In this document: piece by piece, positions 4,798 through 64,000 of the stretch
How positions within the stretch are numbered: the stretch's first letter is position 1
How the letters are laid out: every line of letters begins with the position of its first letter
Assembly (NCBI GenBank): GCA_032622095.1
Contig: CP136061.1
Span: 254,647,582 to 254,711,581, forward strand
Source: Siphonodentalium dalli
Lineage: Eukaryota > Mollusca > Scaphopoda > Gadilida > Siphonodentaliidae
DNA length: 64,000 nucleotides
Reading direction: 5' to 3'
Notes under the pieces: model-generated
Databases searched by the model: none
Told to the model about the DNA's origin: nothing
Seen by the model: only the letters and a program-made list of their open reading frames with translations
Made by a program: the position numbers and the translations under genes

Positions 4798-7095
4798 AAG
4801 CGTTAACAAGGATATCCCACGGTGGGGAATCACGCGTTAACAAGGCTATCCCACGGTGGGGAATCACGCGTTAACAAGGCTATCCCACGGTGGGGAATCA
4901 CGCGTTAACAAGGCTATCCCACGGTGGGGAATCACGCGTTAACAAGGCTATCCCACGGTGGGGAATCACGCGTTAACAAGGCTATCCCACGGTGGGGAAT
5001 CAAAGCGTTAACAAGGCTATCCCACGGTGGGGAATCACGCGTTAACAAGGCTATCCCACGGTGGGGAATCACGCGTTAACAAGGCTATCCCACGGTGGGG
5101 AATCACGCGTTAACAAGGCTATCTCACGGTGGGGAATCACGCGTTAACAAGGCTATCCCACGGTGGGGAATCACGCGTTAACAAGGCTATCCCACGGTGG
5201 GGAATCACGCGTTAACAAGGCTATCCCACGGTGGGGAATCACGCGTTAACAAGGCTATCCCACGGTGGGGAATCACGCGTTAACAAGGCTATCCCACGGT
5301 GGGGAATCACGCGTTAACAAGGCTATCCCACGGTGGGGAATCACGCGTTAACAAGGCTATCCCACGGTGGGGAATCACGCGTTAACAAGGCTATCCCACG
5401 GTGGGGAATCACGCGTTAACAAGGCTATCCCACGGTGGGGAATCACGCGTTAACAAGGCTATCCCACGGTGGGGAATCACGCGTTAACAAGGCTATCCCA
5501 CGGTGGGGAATCACGCGTTAACAAGGCTATCCCACGGTGGGGAATCACGCGTTAACAAGGCTATCCCACGGTGGGGAATCACGCGTTAACAAGGCTATCC
5601 CACGGTGGGGAATCACGCGTTAACAAGGCTATCCCACGGTGGGGAATCAAAGCGTTAACAAGGCTATCCCACGGTGGGGAATCACGCGTTAACAAGGCTA
5701 TCCCACGGTGGGGAATCACGCGTTAACAAGGCTATCCCACGGTGGGGAATCACGCGTTAACAAGGCTATCTCACGGTGGGGAATCAAAGCGTTAACAAGG
5801 CTATCCCACGGTGGGGAATCACGCGTTAACAAGGCTATCTCACGGTGGGGAATCAAAGCGTTAACAAGGCTATCCCATGGTGGGGAATCAAAGCGTTAAC
5901 AAGGCTATCCCACGGTGGGGAATCACGCGTTAACAAGGCTATCCCACGGTGGGGAATCACGCGTTAACAAGGCTATCCCACGGTGTGGAATCACGCGTTA
6001 ACAAGGCTATCCTATGGTGGGGAATCACGCGTTAACAAGGCTATCCCACGGTGGGGAATCACGCGTTAACAAGGCTATCCCACGGTGGGGAATCACGCGT
6101 TAACAAGGCTACCCCACGGTGGGGAATCAAAGCGTTAACAAGGCTATCCCACGGTGGGGAATCAAAGCGTTAACAAGGCTATCCCACGGTGGGGAATCAC
6201 GCGTTAACAAGGCTATCTCACGGTGGGGAATCAAAGCGTTAACAAGGCTATCCCAGGGTGGTGAATCAAAGCGTTAACAAGGCTATCCCACGGTGGGGAA
6301 TCACGCGTTAACAAGGCTATCCCACGGTGTGGAATCACGCGTTAACAAGGCTATCCCACGGTGTGGAATCACGCGTTAACAAGGCTATCCCACGGTGGGG
6401 AATCACGCGTTAACAAGGCTATCCCACGGTGGGGAATCACGCGTTAACAAGGCTATCCCACGGTGGGGGAATCAAAGCGTTAACAAGGCTATCCCACGGT
6501 GGGGAATCAAAGCGTTAACAAGGCTATCCCACGGTGGGGAATCAAAGCGTTAACAAGGCTATCCCACGGTGGGGAATCAAAGCGTTAACAAGGCTATCCC
6601 ACGGTGGGGAATCACGCGTTAACAAGGCTATCTCACGGTGGGGAATCAAAGCGTTAACAAGGCTATCCCAGGGTGGTGAATCAAAGCGTTAACAAGGCTA
6701 TCCCACGGTGGGGAATCACGCGTTAACAAGGCTATCCCACGGTGTGGAATCACGCGTTAACAAGGCTATCCCACGGTGTGGAATCACGCGTTAACAAGGC
6801 TATCCCACGGTGGGGAATCACGCGTTAACAAGGCTATCCCACGGTGGGGAATCACGCGTTAACAAGGCTATCCCACGGTGGGGGAATCAAAGCGTTAACA
6901 AGGCTATCCCACGGTGGGGAATCAAAGCGTTAACAAGGCTATCCCACGGTGGGGAATCAAAGCGTTAACAAGGCTATCCCACGGTGGGGAATCAAAGCGT
7001 TAACAAGGCTATCCCACGGTGGGGAATCACGCGTTAACAAGGCTATCCCACGGTGGGGAATCACGCGTTAACAAGGCTATCCCACGGTGGGGAAT
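4798..7095. repeat. 34/35-bp satellite, about 67 copies
   Basis: Near-perfect tandem array of a unit containing GCGTTAACAAGGCTATCCCA and CGGTGGGGAATCAC. Two length forms alternate irregularly: a 34-bp form with ...AATCACGCG and a 35-bp form with ...AATCAAAGCG. Each unit holds three small dyads (ACGCGT in the 34-bp form, GTTAAC, and CCCAC/GTGGG). Rare variants (CTATCTCA, CAGGGTGGTG, GGTGTGG) show a block near 6211 repeated near 6626, a 415-bp (12-unit) internal duplication. It ends abruptly at GGGGAATAACGTGG. There are no unique spacers, so it is not a CRISPR array. Confidence 0.97.
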
Positions 7096-7255
7096 AACGT
7101 GGTTTCGAGTACCACGCATTCCCAGTGCATGATCGCAAACACGACCAGCGAAAGGGAAAAGGGTAATAAACTAGAATATATAACATAATACATAGTACTT
7201 TGGCAGCAACAAGCTTAATTGTGCTTTTCTATTTTTCAGTTGTCAGTTGTTCTTT

Positions 7256-32746: not shown

Positions 32747-33182
32747 CATTAAGAGAATATGGAGGAAAAGTCCATAGAAGAGGGTACAGATAGTGGTGAG
32801 ACGGTGTCCTTGACATTGGATGATGCGACACGACTGATTCTCCAACAACATGGTATAGAGCAAGCTTTCGAGATCGCTCCTGGCACCTACCAGATTTTCA
32901 CCGATGGATCGGGAAATGTAGCAAGCATTTTAACTGGGCAGCAGGAAGACACCAATCCGTTAATAATACAATCTGGTGGGCAGCCGGAAGACACCAATCC
33001 GTTAATAATACAAGCTGGTGGGCAGCCTGAAGACACCAATCCGTTAATAATACAAGCTGGTGGGCAGCCAGAAGACGCCAATCCGTTAATAATACAAGCT
33101 GAAGACCCATCTGCGTCTGTAGCAACGGTGACATCCTCTGAATTGAATCAGACTGAGATGATTGATGTTCAAAATGCTGGAG
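32747..33182 (+). CDS. AT-hook protein, exon 2 (first coding exon)
   Basis: Acceptor TTTTTCAG at 32739-32746, 12 nt of 5' UTR, ATG at 32759-32761, and donor GGAG|GTCTGT after 33182 (phase 1). It encodes residues 1-141. After an acidic start (MEEKSIEEGTDSGE) comes a compact segment VSLTLDDATRLILQQHGIEQ and FEIAPGTYQIFTDGSGNVAS. Then four copies of a 14-residue unit (GGQPEDTNPLIIQA) occupy residues 60-115, followed by a Ser/Thr/Glu tail. The downstream open frame to 33205 ends in intron. The conserved-looking N-terminal segment is the best handle for finding the orthologue. Confidence 0.8.
32936..33103 (+). repeat. 42-nt in-frame coding repeat, 4 units
   Basis: Units begin at 32936, 32978, 33020 and 33062, exactly 42 nt apart, so each adds 14 residues (core EDTNPLIIQ). 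DNA identity is very high including silent positions, pointing to recent expansion. The number of units may differ between individuals. Confidence 0.95.
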
Positions 33183-44200: not shown

Positions 44201-44291
44201 AAACCATATAAAAATCTTCTGTATTTACGTGTATTTCACAAATAATAAATCACTGGGCGAGCAATAAAAATCATATTATTGTACATGTGTC

Positions 44292-44444
44292 TTTTAGGTC
44301 CTGATGGCTTGAGGAGGAATCATATTATTGTACATGTGTCTTTTAGATATTGATGAGTTGAGGAGGAATCATATTATTGTACATGTGTCTTTTAGATCTT
44401 GATGGGTTGAGGAGGAATCATATTATTGTACATGTGTCTTTTAG
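44292..44444 (+). repeat. 49-bp tandem array of the exon 5 splice acceptor
   Basis: A 49-bp unit (TTTTAG, then about 21 nt of exon 5 sequence, then 22 nt of intron ending ACATGTGTC) starts at 44292, 44341 and 44390. The fourth start, 44439, is the real exon. Acceptor AGs are at 44296, 44345, 44394 and 44443. Entering at any of the first three in the known phase reads 18-19 codons to a TGA. Confidence 0.9.
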
Positions 44445-44498
44445 GTCCTGATGGCTTGAGGAGGAGTGGCAGGCCACGGAAGAGGACCAAAATGGAAG
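44445..44498 (+). CDS. AT-hook protein, exon 5 (second AT-hook)
   Basis: 54 nt, residues 467-484: GPDGLRRSGRPRKRTKME with core GRPRKR at about 475-480. Donor GAAG|GTAAAT, phase 1. It is chosen over the upstream copies because it is the only one with an open frame and a basic hook. The first 21 nt are shared with the decoys. Confidence 0.82.
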
Positions 44499-49626: not shown

Positions 49627-51027
49627 TCCGTTAGGTATATTCGCGTGAACTTACATGTTGGGAGAATTTAGCAAATGGAGCTAATCGTGTGACACTGATA
49701 GATTTGCAGGTTGGGAGAATTTACTCAAGAAAGCCAATTGTCGAACACAAATCCAACAATTTTGGCATTTAATAAACTCTTAGAATGTCATTTGTGTGGT
49801 GGATTCTGTCACACTAATGGTAGATAAATGTGTTATATACACAATGTTTTTGTAACGAATCATGTATCATGACTCGGCTAGTTTTCGTGGCCACATAGCA
49901 GCTCGGCGACCAAAGTCGCCTCATCGCTATATCAGGTCTGCAGGTTTCAAAATTATGTGTAACCTATTTTTCGTTAGCCTGGTTTGTGTTTAGGTAACCC
50001 ATACCATAGGTTAGCAGGAGAGTTACACAAACTATTATAATCACTACAACTGGTATTATTAACTACAGATTGGCAATTCATTGAACTACCGTAATAAATT
50101 TTACTGTCTCATTTTGGGACGTATAGTGAGCAAAAATTAAGGTGAGATTAGTTATCGCGAGACCTGGATTTATAAAACTTTGGCACGACCCGTTTTACGT
50201 TCGCGGCATTTTCATTTTATATAACCTCCAGGCAAACTGAATGGTTGTTTGCCTCAAATTTGCAAGCCTGTATATGGCCACGAAGACTAGCCTCATCACG
50301 ATACATGAATCGATACAAACACATTGTGTATATAACATATATTTATCACTCAGTATTTATATATAAGTATTTATATTATAAGATACCTTACTCGTGTTTA
50401 AATTCACGCAGTACTAATTTTCGCACACCCATCGATGCTCGAATTTAAAACTGAGGAAAAAATACAAATTCTGAGTTTGTACAAAACCATGGGGAAAATA
50501 ATTGGATTATGTTAATCAGTTACATGTACTATGGAAGACTGAATAGACAATTATATTCACAGACAGGCAAACAATATCAACACCATTGTTCACATGCAAA
50601 TATATATTTCACAAGTTGAATTATCTCCCTTGAACTGACTGTGCAAAACCCTCATTTTTAACCATCTTTGGCCAGAATTGACAGTATTCGGCCCTATAGC
50701 TAACCAATGTCAATCACCTAGATAGATGTAAGATATATTAGAATAAAAAGAAAATTTATCGTAACAATTTTGTCTTAGAAGTACAGACGGCCATTTAAAG
50801 GGAGAGAAATCAGACTCTTTTTCCAGTGGAATACCATACAGAGTCGATCCACACCAGATACAAAAAACATACTTCGTATTCAAACATCCTATTTTGTAAA
50901 CTATGGTACCTTTATAAGACAATTTAACCATCAAAACAGTACTAAATAAATAACATAGGCTACACTGAGTTATAGTCCTTAAATGCTTAACATCCTATTG
51001 TTCAGCTCTCCTACAGACACCTCAAAT
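49627..51027. other. Intron sequence, no feature of note
   Basis: AT-rich, with no exon or complete element that I could delimit. Confidence 0.4.
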
Positions 51028-51083
51028 CATTGGCACAGGACTTTTAATGCTGCACCAGCGCAGCTCCATCATGAAAGAGTTAA
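51028..51083 (+). mobile_element. Right end of a type C element
   Basis: TTGGCACAGGACTTTTAATGC then GCACCAGCGCAGCTCCATCA and TGAAAGAGTTAA. It ends 47 bp before exon 7. Confidence 0.7.
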
Positions 51084-51130
51084 TTCAGAACTGGTGCTCA
51101 ATAATTCAGCAAAACTTTATTATATTTTAG

Positions 51131-51258
51131 GTGAGAAAAGAGGGCGTGGTCGTCCAAGAAGATATCCCCCTCCAGGACAGCAGAATACAATGACACAGAT
51201 TCCAGCAGTGGTTATACCAATGGCTGATGGTCAAACTCTCATGATGGCTCCCATACAG
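51131..51258 (+). CDS. AT-hook protein, exon 7 (third AT-hook)
   Basis: Acceptor TATATTTTAG, donor ACAG|GTAAAT, 128 nt, enters phase 1 and leaves phase 0, residues 528-570. GEKRGRGRPRRYPPPGQQ holds the third AT-hook (about 531-538), followed by hydrophobic TQIPAVVIPMADGQTLMMAP. The latter looks like a conserved motif and, with the exon 2 N-terminus, could identify the family. Confidence 0.86.
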
Positions 51259-51706
51259 GTAAATCTTTAACCCTTTCCATACTAAATGGATTCTTCCAGT
51301 CAGTTGTGAAAGTATATATTGGAATGGTCTTTGATTCATTTTGAGAGGTGTTAAGGAAAAAGATACAAAAAATAAAGCAAATAATTAAATAAAGAAAAAT
51401 TCCATGTTTGCAGGCACCTATCTTGTCACTGAAATTTTCTTTTAGAAAGCCAACATTTAAAAAAATATTTTCTGTTAGAAATATTGGAATTGAACATTGA
51501 GAATAATTTTTTTTTTATTTAGGAAGTTTGTTTTTCCGATTTTGAGAAAAAAATGACAATAAATAGCCTCCCTCCCTCATCTCAAAATTGAGATCTAATT
51601 GCCTGAGAACATAGATAATTTAGTTTAATGGCCTAATAGAAGTGCAGGAGTAGTCATATGCATTGGTAGGAAATGTTCTTTATGCTGATCTCTTTATTAG
51701 TTCACC

Positions 51707-52763
51707 TTTAAAGATGGATTATCTCCTGGGTATGAAATAATAATTATGAATCAAAGACCCCTGTCCGAAAATGCATCTATCAATTAATATTAATTTTATT
51801 TTTTTTAAATTTCGTATTAAAATATCTCTGTGCCATTTAATAATGGTCACTAATATTCATGACCGTCTTTCATATTTGCATTTTTTAGTTATTTTAATTA
51901 TTGAAAATGAGCATATGCTGCAGTCTAGGTCTTATATACTTGATTCACACTTAATATTACAATAGATACAATCAATTGGAGACATTTTGCGGCTCAGATT
52001 CGTTCGGAACAACACAATGGAGGCCCCTATCTAAAAGTTCTAAATATAGTAACAAATATATTGCTCATTAATTGATACTATTTTTGTCACATTATAATAA
52101 AATAATATGGAAATATAATCAATATTTATTGATAGTATCTTTCCGGGCAGGGATTTCCAACTCATACGTATTATTTCATACCCTGGAAACTATCTAAAAA
52201 AAATTATATTTATGCCCTGAGAAGATGGCTAAATAAATATTCTGTGATTACATAATATTGAGCCCAAGGAGGGATTTGCTAATTCACAAGACAGGAGACA
52301 ATTTCTCATTCAATGGCTGTTTAATTATCTTCATTAATCAGCCGAAATAATAAAATTGTGAAGGTGGAGCACCAAAAAAACGCCCCATACAAGTCAAACA
52401 AGAGTAACAAATGTAATAAAACATCATAACACATGATAATAACAAAACTTAACGAAATGACCATACTGGGCGGGAGGGAGGGTCAAGAAACAATTACCGA
52501 TGCCGAGATGTGTATGAATTACTAATATAATATTTTAGACTACATAACTTTTGAATAACCTTCCCAAGTCCAGAGAGAGAGATCTTACTGGCTTGCTGAT
52601 GGCGACTGATAAGGAAGACCGCTCACGTGACCAAAAGTATAAATTACATTACGTACAGTCGCCACCAAAACTAACTGCAGGCAATCATGAAACCGATCGC
52701 CAGATCTTCTCAAACATAAAAATGGTTATATATAACCTGCTAAAAGAGATAATCCATCTTTAA
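51707..52763. mobile_element. TIR element, TTAAAGATGGATTATCTC ends
   Basis: Left TTTAAAGATGGATTATCTC and right GAGATAATCCATCTTTAA are exact inverted repeats of 18 bp. Subterminal segments are also inverted copies of each other (CAAAGACCCCTGTCCG / CCGGGCAGGGATTTCC). 1057 bp, no transposase frame. A truncated copy is at 34385. Confidence 0.8.
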
Positions 52764-53127
52764 TGCAGATGTTTATTAATTTAACTCTAAAATCAATTCT
52801 GTTCATGCTTACATTGTCTTTCAATTTTATATTTGCCTGGTAAATTTCTTCTTTATAAAATTATATTTTCACAATTCTAATAAAAACACTCTCAAGGACA
52901 CCTGTGTGACCACGTGGTATTTTATTCTACCAGTATATTTGTATATTTAACCCTTCCTTGACGGAGCTACCTGAAATTTTGCGAAAAAACATGTGCCACA
53001 GCATTCTCATATATTCGAGTCTCCCATAGGGAGCCTTGCATATATAAGAGATTAAACGTATCATTACTTTCGCTCTCTTTTGTAATAAGAGCGAACGTAA
53101 TGACAGGTTTGGTTATACTACTGTCAC

Positions 53128-53268
53128 CAAGCCTTGAAATAGTGTGTCAGAATGAGGTCCCCAGAGGGTGAATTTAGTGATGCTAGCCCGCTATGTGGGG
53201 TAGCATCACTAAATTCACCCTCTGGGGACCTCATTTTGCAAATGACAGACACACTATTTCAAGGCTTG
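53128..53268. mobile_element. Palindromic MITE, GAATGAGGTCCCC family, full length
   Basis: The best copy. Outer arms CAAGCCTTGAAATAGTGTGT / ACACACTATTTCAAGGCTTG and inner arms GAATGAGGTCCCCAGAGGGT and complement make an almost perfect 141-bp palindrome. Confidence 0.9.
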
Positions 53269-53424
53269 ACTGTCACTTCTTTGGATGATGGATAATGCTG
53301 GTAAATAAGAGAAAACATTTGCCTAACAATATTTACCTTGACTTTGTAATCCAGTGCAATCTCTTATATATACGTGGCTCCAGGGAGACTCACATATATA
53401 AGAGTATGCACTGGCACAGGATCT

Positions 53425-53740
53425 TTAACCCTTTCAGTGCCAGGGGCCGATCTCATGTTATAACTCAAAACTATCAACAAGTATTCATAGTAATAATTTT
53501 GATGCCCATGAAAAATGTAAGATTCCCTGGCACTAAATCTACAAAATAAGTCTGCTAAAAAATACAAGAAAAAATTATCAAAATTGTAAAAAATAATAAC
53601 AAATGATGAAAAATTGTTAGGCCAATGCATTCTCTTATATATGCGAGGCGACCTATGGTCGACTCGCATATATAAGAGCATGCATTGGCACAGTGTATAT
53701 GGGTTTATACAAAAATCGGACCTGGCACTGAAAGGGTTAA
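53425..53740 (-). mobile_element. TTAA element, type B, full length (reverse)
   Basis: TTAA at both ends, inverted termini CCCTTTCAGTGCCAG / CTGGCACTGAAAGGG, one hairpin with CCAATGCATTCTCTTATATA arms, and the inner module TTATAACTCAAAACTATCAA ... GATTCCCTGGCACT. It defines the complete B type (316 bp). Confidence 0.92.
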
Positions 53741-53797
53741 CACTGCACCAGTGCTGCTCCCGTCATGAAAGGGTTAACAAGAGAGATCTTATTTTAG

Positions 53798-53957
53798 GAT
53801 CTACAGAACATACATGCACTACAAAATAAAGGCCTACAACAGATCACACCAGCAATTCCATTAGCTAATAACCGAGTGATATCGGAGACAATGGTTGCCA
53901 CCGACAACATCACTGTCTTGGATCCCGGAAGTATGACTGGAATATCTGCTGAACAAG
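53798..53957 (+). CDS. AT-hook protein, exon 8
   Basis: Acceptor CTTATTTTAG, donor CAAG|GTGATT, 160 nt, enters phase 0 and leaves phase 1, residues 571-623. DLQNIHALQNKGLQQITPAI ... NITVLDPGSMTGISAEQ. Gln/Asn/Ile-rich, no known domain. The neighbouring C element ends 20 bp upstream of the exon. Confidence 0.82.
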
Positions 53958-53993
53958 GTGATTGATCGTAATTAATCAAATTAGTTTTAAATA

Positions 53994-54162
53994 CAGTAAT
54001 GCCCTATATAATCGACTCCTTAACCACAGCAGAATTATGGGTAATTTTTTCAGGACTGAGAGCTTTCCGATGAATGGCAACAAACCATATTTCCGACTAA
54101 ATCCTGATAAATTACCCATAATTCTGCTGTGGTTAAGGTGTCGATTATTCAGGGCATTACTG
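53994..54162. mobile_element. Palindromic element, CAGTAATGCCCTATATAATC ends
   Basis: TA-flanked. Arms run from CAGTAATGCCCTATATAATC and AACCACAGCAGAATTATGGG to their complements around a centre CAGGACTGAGAGCTTTCCGA. 169 bp. Starts 36 bp after exon 8. TA flanks fit a Tc1/mariner-like origin. Confidence 0.85.
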
Positions 54163-54214
54163 TAGCACTTATATGCTTGTGGTTTTAAGCTTCTTATATT
54201 ATATGCCACATTTT

Positions 54215-54588
54215 ATTTAAAGACATAATATGGACTTGTTGGGTGCGTGAATCTGTTTAGTTAGTATTCGGATGCTATGCTAACTGGAGGAATGTAACAT
54301 TCTACTAACATGGAGCAAATTGACCATACCACTCAATAGAAAACATCGTTTGAACAACACTCAATTGTAAACATTTACTACTCGATTTGGGACGTATCTA
54401 TCGGTGATAACCTAACGAAAATTATTTTGCCATCGAGAGTCACTACATTTTAATTAATATATTATAAGAATGGTTGTCTATTTGGATATAATATTTAAAC
54501 TAATTACTACTTTGAACAAGATTATTCCCTAGTTCTAGTTGATCACCCTACCAGGTGTTTCACATCACTTTAACATACATGTATCTGC
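54215..54588 (+). repeat. Dispersed repeat, first of a direct pair
   Basis: Shares AAAGACATAATATGGACTTG, CATTCTACTAACAT, GAAAACATCGT and TTTGATCACCC/GTTGATCACCC order with 59265-59650 over about 370 bp at high identity. Confidence 0.75.
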
Positions 54589-54613
54589 AATATTCTTTGA
54601 CACTAAAACAGTG

Positions 54614-54855
54614 TTAACCCTTTACCCAACAGAAGGGCCCTGTGCCAATGCATTCTCTTATATATGCGAGGCGACCTATGGTCGACTCGCATATATAAGA
54701 GAATGCATTGGCACAGGGCATAACTGTAACTATCACAATGTGGTCAAGGAGCCGGTTCCAATGATATCCATATTTGTATGGTTCTATTGAGACAGACCGA
54801 AGATATTTTAGGCTGTTGAAGCTTTATTTGGCCGGTTTGTTGGGTAAAGGGTTAA
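54614..54855 (-). mobile_element. TTAA element, type A, single hairpin
   Basis: 242 bp: TTAA ends, left CCCTTTACCCAACA, one hairpin, one-sided module, right TTGGGTAAAGGG. One hairpin and the spacer are missing compared with the 399-bp form, as expected from recombination between the two hairpins. Confidence 0.9.
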
Positions 54856-54939
54856 GACTAGAATCATTGAGATAGTTGTGTGTGGTAATGCAGTTTTAAA
54901 AAAAGTTACTTTAAAAAAATAATAACACTGTAGGGAATT

Positions 54940-55015
54940 GAACATAGCCGATGAAATGAAAGGAAGGGAATTGAAGATAGCCAATGAAATGAAAGGAAGT
55001 AGTTAGATTTAAGAA
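54940..55015. repeat. Direct duplication of about 36 bp
   Basis: GGGAATTGAACATAGCCGAT and GAAATGAAAGGAA occur twice with small changes. Confidence 0.8.
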
Positions 55016-55767
55016 ATTTTAGAAAGAGAGAGGATGATCAGTGGGGGGAAATTGACATATTGTGTGACCTCATTCTGGCTAGAGAGCCATTTCAACTTTT
55101 CAATATAATCATGTGACTTTGATTAGCCTAAAATGTTGCCATTGGCTCATTCCCATGAACAGGCATTGATAATATTATATAGATATTGCCATGACTTGGA
55201 GTCCCGAGGACCACTATTGTGGCATAGTCAGCGACAAGCTGTGCAATATTTATATTATTTTATCAAATGTTCTTCATGTTGTCCCGGATCCCATAATGTC
55301 AACAATTCACAATCAGATCATGTTATGTAGTGAACAGTTTATTATGTATAGTGCGAACTTAGGGAATTGACAAAAAATATCGAAGCGATGTTGTGATCGC
55401 CGAAGAAAGGAACAGGATAAATCCTCACAAATAACTTAATTATTTAGGCATTTTATTTTGTATTTGTTGGTTTATGGATTTGTTTAGGGGAAGTGGGAGG
55501 AATAAAAATAAAATAGCTATAATTTTTGTTTATATATAAAACTGTTTAGTGTAAACATATTTATTCCAATAATAATAACATATTTATATTTGACAAAAGT
55601 TATGATAATAAAATAGAGTAATATAGTTGATAGATTGATTGGGAAGGGGATTAAACAAGGGCTTTTGTTAAGTTTGCTCCCCTTTTGTTTCTCGCCCACT
55701 CTTCATTAAGTGGGGGTCGGACGGGAAGGAATGAAAATATAATAATAATATAGTATTGATGATGTTA

Positions 55768-55833
55768 TGAGAGACAGGGGAGAGAGAGGGAGATAGAGAG
55801 AAAAGACAGAGAGAGGGAGAGAGAGAGAGAAAG
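55768..55833. repeat. GA microsatellite
   Basis: Imperfect GA repeat (GAGAGACAGGGGAGAGAGAG and onward), with no coding role. Confidence 0.9.
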
Positions 55834-56048
55834 TGTCTAGGTAAAGTGAGGATGTGATTCAGTTGGAGCTGATTGGTTACAATGCTGTACATATAATATT
55901 GTTTGTGTCATTGCTACGCTTGGGGGAAATAAAATATTTACTGTATAGTATAATATCCTTGTCTAGAACAAGCCACCAGATCACCTATGGCTATGCTTTG
56001 CCCATGTCCTCTTCACAGACAATATATATTTTTTATTTGGAAGTGTCT

Positions 56049-56448
56049 TTAAACCTTTACCCAACAAAACGGCCAAAACCGGCCAAATAAAGCTTCAACA
56101 GCCTAAAATATCTTCGGTCTGTCTCAATAGAACCATACAAATATGGATATCATTGGAACCGGCTCCTTGACCACATTGTGATAGTTACAGCTATGCCCTG
56201 TGCCAATGCATTCTCTTATATATGCGAGTCGACCATAGGTCGCCTCGCATATATAAGAGAATGCATTGGCCTAAAAAAAATCTTTTTTTAACACTTTTTA
56301 CCATTTTTTCTTACATTCTTTAACAATTTTATAATTTTTAATGTGTTAAGCCAATGCATTCTCTTATATATGCGAAGCGACCTATGGTCGACTCGCATAT
56401 ATAAGAGAATGCATTGGCACAGGGCCGTTCTGTTGGGTAAAGGGTTAA
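56049..56448 (-). mobile_element. TTAA element, type A (reverse)
   Basis: 400 bp. The left end is slightly mutated (TTAAACCTTTACCCAACA) and the right intact. Two hairpins around TTTTAACACTTTTTACCATT. Confidence 0.9.
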
Positions 56449-57383
56449 AACAAGATCGATGGAAAAATATATTGCGAATATTGGCATCTGCCATGTTGGT
56501 GTTGACTTACCCATTGGAAAATCAGGTAGTTATCTTCCTTGTGTATTTACTAGTGGGACTTATGTACTAGATCTGTAGTATAGTAGTATACCATAAACAT
56601 TGCCGAGAGGCGTCGCTGTTCAATCAATTTTGTTGTGTACGATTATGCAAACTTAAACTCATAATTTACATTTTTTTTATGTCTGGAATGATATTCCATC
56701 CCAATGGGGGATAAAAAACCCGAAAAATAAAATTTATTTTTTCCAAACAGCTTTTTTCTTAGGTAGGGAAATCCTTAATACAAAATAAAATGCCTTATTG
56801 TGCTCTAGTTGTCAACTGCAAAGGCATTTCGGACAACAAATGTTGAATATTTCCAGCGAGGTGGAGATGACTTTCAAATTTCCTCCCTGGGATAGCATGC
56901 ATGCTAAAAATACGTTTCTGGATTTTTCCAGCGATAGTGAGCGTGCTAAAATTAGGAAGCAGACTAATATGTTTGGGACGGAACTATTTTTTTTTGAAAT
57001 TGCTATGAATTTGAGATCCCTTTTATCACATACAGTCAATTTCAGTTAATTGCATATCGTTTAAATGCATAATTCAGCTATTTGCATGAAATATGCATGC
57101 ACCACACCATTTTCTCATAAAAAGACTATTTTTTAGTTGTTTTTATTTGCATAAGGGTCAGACTGTATTCTGTTTTTATGCATATGAAAATCACCAAAAA
57201 TGTTGGTGGGAAGAGGTAAAAAGTCACCTCATGGTGCCGAATTTATAGCAATTTGTAAATAAAATTTAGCTTGACTCAACAGTTATCCCAAGCTGTTGTG
57301 GACTGAGAAGACTTGGGCTAACCCAGAGTAGAGATTCATGAATTGACCTAATTACACCATACATGTATCTGTTTGAATTTCAG
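56449..57383. other. Intron sequence before exon 9
   Basis: No supported exon. Several ATTTGCAT-like words (57090-57097 and its near copies at 57050 and 57148) are spaced about 40-60 bp apart. The plus-strand frame at 56798-57049 is broken and unrecognised. Confidence 0.4.
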
Positions 57384-57725
57384 GTAATTTGGCTGACTCG
57401 TCTTCAAATGTTGTTTTCCAAAGCATAAACCAGGGTCAAATCGTCGAGGTGTCGCTCAACGAGTCGTTCTCGTCATCGTCTAGTCTTCCTGTTATAGCTC
57501 AGTCGCTCAACACACTACAGCCTGTGATCTCCAACTCAGCCACCAATCTCACAAACTCAAGTGCTTCAGATATGCAGATTTCTGTCTCGACAGCTGGCAA
57601 TTCTCTCATTTTGAATGGTGGAACCATTATTTCTGAGTCTTCATCAAACATGGATGAGCCACAGAGAGTCATTCATATTCCATTAGCCAATCCACAAGGG
57701 GAGTTAAAAGTCATCGAGAATGCAG
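57384..57725 (+). CDS. AT-hook protein, exon 9
   Basis: Acceptor TTGAATTTCAG, donor GCAG|GTGAGT, 342 nt, phase 1 at both ends, residues 624-737. Ser/Asn/Gln-rich: NLADSSSNVVFQSINQGQIV, SLNESFSSSSSLPVIAQSLN, and ending RVIHIPLANPQGELKVIENA. Probably a disordered or activation-type region. The frame runs on past the donor to 57862, but the GTGAGT donor and the phase of exon 10 argue for splicing. Confidence 0.85.
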
Positions 57726-58904
57726 GTGAGTCTCCAGGGACCTGTCGAAAAATAAGGCGACGTTATCGTTCTCTATTGCGAATGAGCTTTACAAAATCTA
57801 AATTGACCAGTACAGCAGTCGCTTATATAACGAAAATCGGAGATGTGCAATATCTAAATTAAAATGATGAATCAATGGTTCAGATATGGAATCTTTATGT
57901 TCAAATCATCACTCTAATAACTATGAATTATCTACAAACATAATTGTGAGAGAATGGTAGCATTTTATATGATAATTTTGGGAGAAGGCATTGTTACAAC
58001 CGCTTATGAATACGGATTTTTTTTTTTTTTAAAGCAATGCTTATGAATATGACAAAAATTGCTGAACATTAAAAAGAAACGGTATCTTGAATATTCTCAC
58101 TCATTAAATGTGCATAAGCTGGGTACAGGTATTAATATGTTGCACAAATGAATTTGTTTCCAAAGTTGTTCAGGCCTTCACAAAACTTTTAACAATGGGG
58201 TGATGAACTGACACAATGTTATCCTCATTCATTGTAAGGTCTGATAATCTCAAAATCACAAGTCACTTTCTACACATTACAATGTTTTCACAGCTGTCTG
58301 CAATCAACGCTCAGGTATGAATATGTCCCCAAATCGGATTAATACAGATGTTAATAAGAATTATGGTGTTTTATAAGACCCTATCAATGGATAACTGGGT
58401 TCAATCAATGTTAGGATGAATATTTTGCTGATTTTCGTCGGTCAACTTGGGAAATTTCAGGGCAACTTAAACTTTGCCCGGCTGAAAAATTAGTATATTA
58501 GCCATAATGAAAGAGGGGAGTGAAGCGAAGTACCATAATATTTAATTTAGTTATGCAACTTTGGTATTTATAACCATACTATTTACGAACCAAGGACAAT
58601 TCAAAATCAAATCGAAAGAAAAATTAGGGCGAAGTGAGCAAGAATAGGGAGATTGTGAGTCTCAGTCTTTAGCCCTGTCTTTGCCACTGTGAATGGGTTT
58701 GATTTCAACGGCCTCAATGTTCGTGGTTTCTTATAAAAAGGCTATTTCGCGGGGATGTGAATTTGTGGTTCAGATATCATATTTATCCACATCAACAGGT
58801 CCTACAATCATTGAGAAATCTGACCTCCAGGTATTCCGGAGCCTAAAGGGCATCACCCAATCTGTGCACTAATAGCTACCGGCTTCATTTCACACACTAT
58901 AGGC
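57726..58904. other. Intron sequence, no confident feature
   Basis: A 21-nt piece at 58294-58314 between TTTTCACAG and GTATGA would keep phase 1 (AVCNQRS), but it is too short to support. Otherwise AT-rich. Confidence 0.4.
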
Positions 58905-60405
58905 GAGGTGGGGCCAAAAAAACAAAAAACTTCTGTGTTTCCGGTTTCCCGACCTACCTGCCGAAATTGGGCCGACCTGGAATTTTTTTCCAAAATTTTC
59001 AAAACAAAAACAAAAATAAATTTCAAATTTTTTTTATGCACGTAATTGACATGTAAAACACATCTATGTAGATAAAAGTTGCAAAATAAACCATGGCTTT
59101 ATTTTAGCACATGCTAAAATAAAGCAAGAACGGATACTTCAGCTATCATAATCGAGTCATGCGCTCAGAACTACAACCAAAAATCAAACTATATGGATAT
59201 TAACATTGTATATATTAAGCAGCAATAATTTTAGATGGAATATTCAAAAACAGTTTACTTTTATTAAAGACATATTATGGACTTGTTCGGGTGTGTGAAA
59301 TTTATAAGTTAGTACTCAGGCCCTATGCCAATATGGGGAATGTAGCATTCTACTAACATCGCCAAAATTTCAAAGAATTCAACCATACCACTCCATCGAA
59401 AACATCGTCGGAACTGCGCCCAATTGTAGATATATACATCTCGATCCGGGACGCAACTATCGGCGATAATCTAACACAAATGATTTCGCCATCGAGAGCC
59501 ATTGCATTTACTTAATATATAAGAATGACAATGTGTATCGTCAATTTGGATTGATATAAGTAACTAATAACTACTTTGAGCAAGATTATTCTCAATTTCT
59601 ATTTGATCACCCAACCGGAGTGTTTCACATCACTTTAAGATACATGCGTACATGTATTTTTGGTTGCAGGGATGAATCCCAATTTCAGGAATAAATTTGT
59701 CCTGTTCTGAGAGTCGCACGGTCAGGTGAAAATGTGATGTCAACATGATGGCATGGAAGTTGCCTAGACTTTTGCTAGCAATGCCGATAGTATCAATGTT
59801 ATCATGTACAGTATTGCGCAACATTGTGTCACGGTGCCATGAGCCACAGGAAATAGCATTTTCGTGTCCCTTCTTGGAACTCAGATCACTCCAAACTTTC
59901 TGGTGCATATTCTGGGTATATTGTCAATATATAAAACTAGTTTTCTGTCTGAAACTTTAGCAGCTGGATACAAAGGTATTGAGAATACCAACTTTTATCT
60001 CCCCCCCACGACAGTTCAGAAATAAGTGATCATAAGTATCCACGTTTCACAAATACACTGATTATCCACAAAAAAAAAAAAAATTTACTTGTTTTATATT
60101 TTGTTACTTTATATCTACAAATTACATTTAATCATATATACATGTATGTTCATATATACCTAAAAATATTTGAAAATGTTATACAATACTGAATAAGACT
60201 AATGTCACATGATGAAATTTAAAAAATGATCTGAATAAAAAAATTAAAAAAAAACAACTTTTATCTTGTTTTTAGAATATGGTGCATTATAGATGGATTT
60301 TGAAGAAAAAAAATTGCCAAAAAAACTAAAGAATTCCAATTCCTACCTGGATTTTTTTGCTCAAGAAATCGGAAACAGACAAGTTTTTTGTTTTGGCCTA
60401 GTCAT
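58905..60405. mobile_element. TIR element, GGCCAAAAmAAAAAACTT ends, about 1.5 kb
   Basis: Left GGCCAAAAAAACAAAAAACTT with CTGTGTTTCCGG and CGACCTGGAATTTTTTT. The right end is the near complement (AAAAAAATCCAGG ... ACAAGTTTTTTGTTTTGGCC). It appears to enclose the second dispersed repeat copy (59265-59650). Ends resemble the nested unit at 41633-42026. Confidence 0.5.
59265..59650 (+). repeat. Dispersed repeat, second of a direct pair
   Basis: Copy of 54215-54588 in the same orientation, 5.05 kb apart, with scattered substitutions. Confidence 0.75.
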
Positions 60406-60713
60406 TTATTGTTTTATGTAACCTTCATGTGTGAAACATACATTAGCCTTTGTTAAGAGACCAAGTGATTGAGCATTGTTTGTACAAACTATAATAGCAG
60501 GGAACAGACAATGTTGTACATAAACAATTATGAATAGGCCACTGTACAATTAAATTAATAATGTTTTATCTCGTCTTCCATGTTTTTTGTCAACCCATTT
60601 TACGACATGCCGAAAACAGACTTAATGCTCGATCTTCATTTCCATATATTGAGATTTATTTTTCCAACTCTTGAGTAAATTATTTTGTTGGATGTTTATT
60701 TCGTGGGTGGATC
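60406..60713. other. Intron sequence, no feature seen
   Basis: AT-rich, with no exon or element that I can delimit. Confidence 0.4.
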
Positions 60714-61055
60714 AAACCACAAAATCAACAAATAGAATAGACCCCCATGAATTAACCCTTTGAGTGCCAGGTCCGATTTTTGTATCAACCCATATACCCT
60801 GTGCCAATGCGTTCTCTTATATATGCGAGTATAGGTCGCATCGCATATATAAGAGAATGCATTGGCCTAACAATTTTTCATCATTTGTTATTATTTTTTA
60901 TAATTTTTTCTTATATTCTTTAACAGACTTATTTTGTAGATTTAGTGCCAGGGAATCTCACGTTTTTCATGGGCATCAAAATTATTACTATGAATACTTG
61001 GTGATAGTCAAACCACAAAATCAACAAATAGAATAGACCCCCACGAATTAAAAGG
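60714..61055 (+). mobile_element. Type B element flanked by 43-bp direct repeats
   Basis: TTAACCCTTTGAGTGCCAGG at 60752, one hairpin (part of its loop lost), and inner module to GAATACTTGGTGATAGT. It then breaks off, and the 43 bp that precede the element (CAAACCACAAAATCAACAAA, TAGAATAGACCCCCATGAAT) are repeated. A TTAA insertion alone would not duplicate 43 bp. Confidence 0.8.
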
Positions 61056-61130
61056 ATTTTACAGTAAATCAATTATCCCACCCAGTTATAATATATTATT
61101 CATTTGGAAGGGTGTTCAGGAGAGACGAAT

Positions 61131-61432
61131 ATGTTTTGTAGACTGTCAGGCTGACGAATATGTTTTGTAGACTGTCAGGCTGACGAATATGTTTTGTAGA
61201 CTGTCAGACTGTGATGAATATTTTTTGTAGACTATCAGACTCTGTTGAATATGTTTTGTAGACTGTCAGACTCTGATGAATATGTTTTGTAGACTGTCAG
61301 ACTCTGATGAATATGTTTTGTAGACTGTCAGACTCTGACATATATTCCGTTGAATATGTTTTGTAGACTGTCAGACTCTGACATATATTCCGTTGAATAT
61401 GTGACATATATTCCGTTGAATATGTTTTGTAG
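61131..61432 (+). repeat. Tandem array of the exon 10 splice acceptor
   Basis: TGAATATGTTTTGTAG followed by ACTGTCAGACTCTGA is copied so that acceptor AGs fall at 61140, 61169, 61198, 61229, 61260, 61291, 61322, 61365 and 61431 (first base), the last being used for exon 10. Spacings are 29, 29, 31, 31, 31, 31, 43 and 66. The last two are lengthened by a CATATATTCCGTTGAATATG segment. Each of the eight upstream acceptors, read in the incoming phase, reaches a stop. Confidence 0.88.
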
Positions 61433-61546
61433 ACTGTCAGACTCTGAGTCAGCAGCAGTGTGATGGAATCACCCAACCAACTTACATGCAGATACCAGAT
61501 AATTTATTGCCAATGTTTGAAAAGAAAGATACACCTATCAGAATCG
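61433..61546 (+). CDS. AT-hook protein, exon 10
   Basis: Acceptor ATATGTTTTGTAG, donor ATCG|GTAAGT, 114 nt, phase 1 in and out, residues 738-775. It joins as DCQTLSQQQCDGITQPTYMQ then IPDNLLPMFEKKDTPIRI. The strong donor, unbroken frame and matching phase support it. The frame is open only from this acceptor. The next exon was not found before 64000. Confidence 0.75.
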
Positions 61547-61762
61547 GTAAGTTCTTTTGTTATATGAGTAATAATGACTATCGGTTTTATGTCCCCAATA
61601 CCACTATAGTAAAGCAAATATTTCCCGACCATCGGATCAGCTACAGCTTGATCCGATGTCATTCCATCCTTCTCTATCTTATGTCTACAACACCACCAGC
61701 CTTTTATATTAAAATAACACACAATGATCCCGAATGACGAACAAATATGATGTCATGATGTA

Positions 61763-61975
61763 CAGTAATGCCATAAATAATCGACTCTTTAACTACAGCA
61801 GAATTATGGATAACTTTTCAGGATTTAGTCGGAAATATGGCTTGTTGCCATTCATCAGAAAGCTCTCAGGGAGAGCTTTCCGGTGAATGGCAACAAGCCA
61901 TATTTCCGACTAAATCCTGAAAAGTTACCCATAATTCTGCTGTAGTTAAAGAGTCGATTACTTAGGGCATTACTT
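61763..61975. mobile_element. Palindromic element, CAGTAATGCC family, long form
   Basis: 213 bp, TA-flanked. Arms include GGATTTAGTCGGAAATATGG and GCTTGTTGCCATTCATCAGA with their complements, centred on CTCTCAGGGAGAGCTTTCCG. The longest copy of the family here. Confidence 0.88.
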
Positions 61976-62786
61976 TAGTTCTGAGAGTAGGATAACATCT
62001 TGAGAGTGGAATAACACATTCAATCTTCTGTGAGTGGGAATACGATTTATATTTGATGTAAAAAGTTGATCAAAATTTAATACAATATGTTATCGGCTTA
62101 ATTTCAGAGACATACAACAATCAGTACTTGACATTATTATACTATAGGCCTATATTATCAAAGAGTGATGTCTTCATTATATGTGTATGAAAGTCTACTT
62201 GCACTGTTTCCATGATATTAATCGAGCATTCGTGTTATTGCCATGTGTTGGGTCTAAATATGTTCATAACTATTTACATGATCCTCCACAAGGTTCTTTT
62301 TCTTAACATATCAGGGTCGTTTTATATGCCTTATAATTATTTATGTATGAGCTACTGATTGCTTTCTTACTGTATTGACCACCTATAATGTGGTGTCACC
62401 CCAGGAATACCAAAGTAACATACCGCGATAACCACCAACACCGCGTTAAGGTAACCGCTTCAAAACCATGATGCATCTGGGTATTAAAGCAATTTAAAGC
62501 AAAATTTCAAACAGAAATGTCACAATTAAAGCAGTAAACACATTACTAAAAAAAAGTCAGGTGCACTTCTTGTGAATGCAACATGATTGGTCTTCATTGT
62601 AATCTTCGAGCTGAGTACCCCACAATGTAGCACGCCATGAACTTTACACGACTTTTAAGTTGCTGACATTGTTTCAGCAGTCAATTTATAAACTCCACCC
62701 ATCGCCTGGTGTCAGGCTGCATTGATTGACATTACACATGCAGGCATGAACATCAAGTGCAGAGATTCTCCTTATATCTGTGTAAC
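61976..62786. other. Intron or downstream sequence, no feature of note
   Basis: AT-rich. Near 62375-62460, GTGGTGTCACCCCAGGAATA and ACCGCGATAACCACC resemble a decayed piece of the 27.6-kb palindromic element. Confidence 0.35.
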
Positions 62787-63187
62787 TTAACCCTTTACCC
62801 AACAAACCGGCCAAAACCGGCCAAATAAAGCTGCAACAGCCTAAATTATCTTGGGTCTGTCTCAATAGAACCATACAAATATGGATATTATTGGAACCGG
62901 CTCCTTGACCACATTGTGATAGTTACAGTTATGCCCTGTGCCAATGCATTCTCTTATATATGCGAGTTGACCATAGGTCGCCTCGCATATATAAGAGAAT
63001 GCATTGGCCTAAAAAAAATCTTTTTTTTAACACTTTTTACCATTTTTTCTTACATTCTTTAACAATTTTATAATTTTTAATGTGTTAAGCCAATGCATTC
63101 TCTTATATATGCGAGGCGACCTATGGTCGACTCGCATATATAAGAGAATGCATTGGCACAGGGCCGTTCTGTTGGGTAAAGGGTTAA
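62787..63187 (-). mobile_element. TTAA element, type A (reverse)
   Basis: 401 bp. TTAACCCTTTACCCAACA at 62787, two hairpins, and right end GTTGGGTAAAGGGTTAA at 63187. Nearly identical to the copy at 56049, which suggests recent activity. Confidence 0.93.
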
Positions 63188-63883
63188 CGAGATCCTCATG
63201 GACATATTCTTTTTTTTCAACTTTGGTGTGACGACCGGCTAATGGACTCCAGTATCTTAACCACCATATCGTAACTCCATCGCAGTGATCGTCTCGTTAC
63301 TGCTGTGGATACCATATACCAACACTGCGATCATTACCGACCGGGTTAACACCCTGTTTTACAAGTCAATTAATTTGACAATGGCGGTAGATGTATTTCA
63401 CTTTTATGGAATATGACATTCACATCATAGTTTCGCTAATGATCGGCGTCTGTTTTTGGAACTCACTCAATTAACAATATACTATATCAAAACATCGTGA
63501 TCACTATTTACTTAGTGAATCCCCAAGGACAGCTTCGAATTCAACTCATTAATTATGTTATTGTCAAGTTGTGCCGATTTGCGTAAAGCGGGTGCTTGTG
63601 CAAGCCTCCGATACCACTAAAATGTTAATGCTGGGATTACCTCAGTTTCATTCACCAATACAATTCTAGTTGAAAGAATATGTTGGGCCATTTTACCTAA
63701 AAATCAAGTTCAGATACACCCGAAAATCGGAGGGCGACTTCACTTCTCCCTGGCGCGACACGAAGGCGACTTCGTGGCGTCGAGGGCGACTATTTCGCCC
63801 TACTCGCCTGGTAAGCTGAGGCCTGATCCAGACTGATCAAGTATCAAATCTAACCAAGCCTGATTATAGCTTGTCTGTCATTT
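63188..63883. other. No gene seen
   Basis: Contains repeated GGCGACT words near 63730-63800 (GAGGGCGACTTCACTTCTCC, GAAGGCGACTTCGTGGCG), a short cryptic repeat. No next exon of the AT-hook gene was identified. Confidence 0.4.
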
Positions 63884-63975
63884 GCAGAATGAGGTCCTGA
63901 GAGGTGAATTTAGTGAAGCTATCCCACATAGTGGGCTAGCATCACTAAATTCATCCTGTGCGGACCTCAATCTGC
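63884..63975. mobile_element. Palindromic MITE, GAATGAGGTCCCC family
   Basis: GCAGAATGAGGTCCTGAGAG to ACCTCAATCTGC with a diverged centre GCTATCCCACATAGTGGGCT. Confidence 0.8.
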
Positions 63976-64000
63976 TCAGGCCTCATCTTCTGTGAAGTAT

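Follow-up and report, generated by a model that had tools for sequence, protein, structure and literature searches.

What, if anything, is achieved by placing nine consecutive copies of a splice acceptor in front of a single exon, and which of the nine is used, are the questions raised by a locus in the scaphopod mollusc Siphonodentalium dalli. The locus was analyzed within a stretch of 64,000 nucleotides, hereafter the window (assembly GCA_032622095.1, contig CP136061.1, positions 254,647,582 to 254,711,581, forward strand), and positions are counted from its first letter. A tandem array on the plus strand at 61127-61447 repeats the end of an intron together with the start of the exon that follows it, exon 10 of a predicted gene, the exon part of the last copy being part of the real exon. 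Judged by its sequence, this array is by definition a "mirage", since its unit spans a splice border and its copies retain splice signals. In our view the best account of it is that of a by-product of DNA duplication, unstable in nature, and not of a device built for control. We assign a probability of about three in four to the reading that the array is neutral, came about when the intron/exon border was locally duplicated in tandem and is spliced at its last acceptor.

Nine copies of the core GAATATGTTTTGTAG/ACTGTCAG, where the slash marks the border, were located in the array. Their acceptor AGs, each ending in the G that closes the intron, lie at 61140-61141, 61169-61170, 61198-61199, 61229-61230, 61260-61261, 61291-61292, 61322-61323, 61365-61366 and, for the acceptor that opens the exon, 61431-61432. 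The AG is kept in all nine copies, the mean column identity across 31 columns is 93%, and each 31-bp unit comprises 15 nt of exon start and 16 nt of intron end, spanning the border of one intron and one exon. A previous, sequence-only reading of this DNA had described nine tandem acceptors in which the repeated unit is a splice border and eight copies come before the exon-opening one, and the positions of the cores bear this out. The unit length of 29-31 bp that it gave holds for the first six of the eight acceptor-to-acceptor spacings (29, 29, 31, 31, 31 and 31 bp, from 5' to 3') but not for the last two, which are 43 and 66 bp. Units 1-2 consist of ACTGTCAGGCTGAC plus GAATATGTTTTGTAG, and units 3-6, each of 31 bp, are made of ACTGTCAGACTCTGAT plus the core, units 3 and 4 carrying point changes. 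An extra CATATATTCCGT is present in the seventh unit, and the eighth contains a 23-bp duplication, two copies of TGACATATATTCCGTTGAATATG, in the longer last spacer (61379-61425). Tandem Repeats Finder (TRF) reported the array with scores of 340 (period 31, 7.0 copies), 190 (period 43) and 94 (period 23), and the 43-bp step can plausibly be explained by a TGA...TGA match. Likeness to the real exon start rises toward the 3' end of the array, and every unit bears a second AG (TCAG) 8 nt downstream of the first.

A pattern search for the core, allowing up to 2 mismatches and yielding lower-bound counts, returned 9 sites in the 2.23-Gb assembly, all within the array, and the reversed-pattern control returned 0. 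A mobile element or dispersed repeat was rejected as the nature of the array, because all nine assembly-wide occurrences of the core lie here. Nor does the array appear to be a structured RNA or riboswitch-like element: Rfam gave 0 matches in 50000-64000, and the predicted fold is not unusually stable (z = -1.43, with 9 of 100 shuffles equally good).

The eight upstream acceptors behave as decoys in the sense that each of them, once joined to the G carried in from exon 9, runs into an in-frame stop. The first reads DCQADEYVL and then a stop; the fourth has a G to T change in its core (exon part ACTATCAG); the reading from the seventh enters the real exon before stopping; and the eighth, which lies 66 nt before the last acceptor and in phase with it, meets a TGA after 12 residues. 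If the TCAG alternatives are counted as well, all 16 decoy AGs lead to stops. The sequence-only reading had called these decoys poisoned, and its count of eight out of eight is correct. The pattern invites the interpretation that the array is a regulatory device, in which stop-bearing decoys compete with the real acceptor and commit a share of the transcripts to nonsense-mediated decay, the number of copies setting how much the gene yields; consistent with such competition, the decoy cores hardly differ from the real one and have position weight matrix (PWM) scores of 3.1-4.9 versus 3.9. However, all eight decoys stop in 64.5% of 20,000 simulated tandem arrays that keep this spacing around a random intronic core, and in 69.9% of simulations of plain intron. 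Because unit lengths not divisible by three rotate the reading frame, an all-stop outcome is nearly automatic. Hence, an outcome expected by chance in 65-70% of cases is no sign of design, and the poisoned decoys are not evidence of function.

The argument presupposes that exon 10 is an exon. In the numbering of the sequence-only reading, exon 9 occupies 57384-57725 (phase 1 in and out) and ends in the donor GCAG/GTGAGT, with 57725 as its last base, and the 114-nt exon 10 occupies 61433-61546 (CQTLSQQQCDGITQPTYMQIPDNLLPMFEKKDTPIRI, donor GTAAGT), likewise in phase 1 at both ends. Joining exon 9 to the last acceptor gives 38 open codons, and with the decoys all stopping this upholds the earlier statement that only the last acceptor opens exon 10. 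With a codon table trained on chaperonin exons from the same genome (1878 codons), exon 10 ranks within the top 0.9% of a set of 3410 open 37-codon windows, overlapping one another, from flanking DNA, comparable to exon 9 (top 0.4% of flanking open windows), and the competing frame opened by GAG at 61448 is ordinary (41%). The next exon found lies beyond the window, 29.3 kb downstream of exon 10 at position 90844 from the window start (G000:C1:254738425); it has an incoming phase of 1, is preceded by TTGTTTTTCAG and codes for a CxxC...HxxxH zinc-finger-like sequence. Joined, the six exons from 44445 to 90844 form a single open frame of 327 residues with matching phases at all joins. No Pfam family passed its cut-off with four single exons or with the joined 327-residue peptide, a PDB search with the latter gave one match that was judged to be chance, and the matches of the zinc-finger exon were all weak ones to zinc fingers (best E 0.014). 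The label "AT-hook / C2H2 zinc finger" for this gene is therefore a weak one, drawn from motifs recognized by eye and from weak matches. That Pfam holds no relative of the 37-residue peptide of exon 10 would fit a plain intronic minisatellite with an accidental open frame and no exon at all, but the codon score, the canonical donor and the phase agreement on both sides, including that with the zinc-finger exon, make this reading highly improbable.

Whether position within the array could set one acceptor apart was assessed against the 157 acceptors sampled from the same genome in the survey described below, from which the acceptor PWM was also built. The last acceptor has a 56-nt AG-free stretch, as long as or longer than that of 141 of the 157 sampled acceptors, and the decoys have AG-free stretches of 15-33 nt. 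As 37 of the 157 real acceptors have 21 nt or less, an AG exclusion zone was rejected as the sole discriminator between copies; position favours the last acceptor without ruling out the decoys. The same figures weaken the idea behind the earlier proposal of a branch point selected in the longer last spacer, namely that this spacer alone has room for one, the 56 nt being favourable but not exclusive. The motif CTGA[CT] sits 16 nt before four decoy AGs (those ending at 61170, 61199, 61292 and 61323), 28 nt upstream of the eighth decoy (61366) and 51 nt upstream of the last acceptor. These positions were dropped as branch-point evidence because CTGA[CT] is not enriched before the 157 sampled acceptors (1.91 versus 1.87 per kb) and CTAA[CT] is, about threefold, 14-48 nt before them (3.18 versus 0.96 per kb). 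The latter enrichment may be a hint at the branch-point preference of the species.

The nine-copy array is not singular, since other acceptor and donor borders are duplicated in the same genome. The predicted gene itself contains a second acceptor array at 44269-44465 (plus strand), with four copies of a 49-bp unit whose AGs end at 44297, 44346, 44395 and 44444. Its three decoys all run into stops, which adds to the case for regulation, and its last copy opens an exon at 44445-44498. Exon regions were then sampled by family match alone: 157 regions (105 of the 123 matches listed for kinesin, 37 of 53 for chaperonin and 15 of 85 for myosin), providing 314 borders. Near-identical copies, two long single-frame matches and some other regions were not taken, and some related copies were left in the sample, the borders in which are not fully independent. 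Under a strict, ungapped criterion, 13 of the 314 borders fall in a local direct repeat, compared with 380 of 14710 intron points. Under a gapped criterion, a second copy lies close by for 19 of 314 borders, compared with 95 of 2296 intron points (P = 0.14, odds ratio 1.5) and 15 of 585 exon points. These hits comprise 14 of 157 donors and 5 of 157 acceptors (P = 0.056), and they number 10 of 194 borders in the first 97 regions, which had suggested the pattern, and 9 of 120 in the repeat set of 60 regions. Two donor positions were set by hand, of which one (L034) is a hit under both criteria and the other (L047) under neither. Caution is due with some weak or questionable hits: L142 and L166 lie at the score threshold, the second copy of L136 is 248 bp away, and the donor of L159 may be inside the exon. 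Six borders that appear duplicated by eye (L047, L101, L110, L126, L145 and L175) stand outside the program counts. In this single-genome sample, splice borders are duplicated about as often as the intron interior, and are neither clearly enriched nor depleted. A chaperonin donor border (...GCAACTCATATG/GTAAGC) lies in a 39-bp array (L098:453-818; TRF 2.8 + 6.0 copies).

With 6% of the sampled borders accompanied by a second copy close by, and with arrays of up to 9 acceptors or 14 donors in essential genes, the lineage could be thought to carry splice-border minisatellites as a genome-wide class, in which hypervariable copy number acts as a splicing rheostat and selection keeps the decoys stop-bearing. 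If so, the spliceosome would have to pick the exon-proximal copy reliably from among near-identical ones. We regard this broader scheme as speculative and unlikely.

The 14 donors belong to a set of three related kinesin loci on contig C7, in which the acceptor and donor exons were paired into loci by nearness. The donor arrays (CACGATTACTCAAA/GTATGTATAAATCTCT, period 30-32) have 14, 11 and 14 copies in L178, L179 and L180, respectively, L178 being an extension of L085, and the acceptor arrays have 4, 1 and 7 copies in L181, L182 and L183, the last of which overlaps L175. By locus, the acceptor and donor copies number 4 and 14 (209.48-209.49 Mb), 1 and 14 (207.98-207.99 Mb) and 7 and 11 (209.77-209.79 Mb). 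At the single-acceptor locus, a 186-base run spanning the acceptor matches the last copy of the four-copy locus at 96.8%, from which it appears that the extra acceptor copies have been gained or lost, in either direction, while the exon-proximal copy stays. Although they concern a different gene, these loci constitute the best evidence in this analysis that such arrays may be unstable and dispensable. They also bear on the regulatory device: one related locus manages with a single acceptor copy, and chaperonin and kinesin genes have duplicated borders too, at roughly the intron background rate. Together with the simulated stop frequencies, this makes it unlikely that the decoys serve to tune the AT-hook / zinc-finger gene.

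We infer the following history for a neutral mirage at exon 10. A single ancestral border, ...TGACATATATTCCGTTGAATATGTTTTGTAG/ACTGTCAGACTCTGAG..., would have been duplicated in 31-, 43- and 23-bp units, and these duplications would have left every extra acceptor inside the intron. Exon 9 is most likely still spliced to the last acceptor, the sole copy that is in frame and continuous with the exon. Use of a decoy would yield transcripts with premature stops, and skipping of the 114-nt exon 10 would keep the frame. On this view the array is tolerated without being selected for, and an unstable copy number is expected. The two outcomes proposed by the sequence-only reading, that nonsense-mediated decay lowers output or that a branch point has been selected, are possible and draw no support from the present results.

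Several points weigh against the neutral-mirage account. The use of the last acceptor is an unproven prediction from sequence. The array acceptors score near the bottom of real ones in the genome's own matrix, that of exon 10 (3.9) being 11th lowest against the 157 sampled, and the TCAG 8 nt past it scores higher (6.5), though it leads to a stop; the TCAG alternatives of the array as a whole reach 6.5-7.8, yet have just 6 AG-free nt upstream. Phase agreement alone is no proof of exon 10, because the exon is symmetric and skipping it keeps the frame too. Finally, the slight, non-significant excess in the survey makes a modest bias toward borders possible. The weak acceptor and the open frame without exon 10 are also what would be expected if the array weakened a cassette exon that is mostly skipped, exon 9 being joined to the zinc-finger exon in a protein shorter by 38 residues. 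The coding-like codon use of exon 10 and its donor, which is strong by eye, speak against such routine skipping, which we consider distinctly unlikely.

The remaining exons of the predicted gene and other repeats of the window complete the picture, all exons being on the plus strand. Upstream of exon 9, exons were placed at 53798-53957 (phase 0 in, 1 out) and at 51131-51258 (phase 1 in, 0 out), the latter with an AT-hook-like motif that falls below the Pfam cut-off for AT_hook. The exon opened by the second array (44445-44498, PDGLRRSGRPRKRTKME, phase 1 in and out) encodes the AT-hook-like SGRPRKRTK. A 42-bp tandem repeat of 4.0 copies at 32935-33101, also on the plus strand, sits within an exon of this gene that is probably coding (GGQPEDTNPLIIQA), and its unit is a multiple of three. 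Tandem arrays with a period of at least 20 make up about 14% of the window, and a 34-bp array at 4800-7099 has 67 copies with 96% matches. Dispersed hairpins with GCATATATAAGAGAATGCATTGGC arms occur at 60803-60866, 62941-63010 and elsewhere in the window, as well as in many sampled intron flanks, and are probably small non-autonomous elements.

Taken alone, the nine-copy locus is likely to be of modest consequence, an unstable array that is spliced around. Its main interest lies at the level of the genome, in splice-border arrays that include loci differing in copy number. Because core strength is almost constant and position alone differs, the nine near-identical cores and the kinesin loci with 7, 4 and 1 copies offer a natural competition assay for 3' splice-site choice. 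The survey suggests that border duplication is tolerated at approximately the intron background rate, which bears on the movement of intron borders and on intron gain by tandem duplication.

Among known arrangements, NAGNAG and other tandem acceptors are closely spaced, competing acceptors that arise by point change within one acceptor. The TAG and TCAG lying 8 nt apart in each array unit resemble them, but here the whole border has been duplicated repeatedly. Closer counterparts are the amphioxus mirages, described as minisatellites that span exon-intron borders and are regularly spliced according to reverse transcription PCR (RT-PCR). In BflGb6, the 3' end of an intron and the 5' part of an exon are repeated in 6 and 3 units in two haplotypes (PMC3087553). 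BflGb6, BflGb9 and Adh3 are like the present array in that many repeat copies carry splice signals. They differ in unit size, with 150-160 bp in BflGb6, 157 bp in BflGb9 and 10-72 bp in Adh3 (the last as cited there), against 29-66 bp in nine copies here, and in that they were followed by RT-PCR, the present array being known from DNA alone (PMC3087553). The genome examined here, 2.23 Gb in 9 contigs, does not fit amphioxus in size or chromosome number. Probes of it for two families, PF14830 and PF00379, gave no match and are uninformative as to the host, since the control genomes gave none either. The account of lancelet PGBD5 likewise presents splice-site duplications, citing Adh and troponin C as further cases and judging splicing to be undisturbed; its copies are two or three and imperfect, whereas here there are up to 9 acceptors, and 14 donors in a kinesin gene (PMC3902484). 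In human genes within segmental duplications, minisatellites with units of about 30 bp at exon-intron borders alter exon-intron structure and can reportedly give rise to new introns (PMC2812944). The unit size is similar, but those cases concern recent primate paralogues, and the relevant passages describe no acceptor array before an unchanged exon (PMC2812944). A literature search returned no such array outside the lancelets besides the human cases, which is not a claim that none is in print. The array of S. dalli joins the known mirage kind, apparently outside the lancelets.
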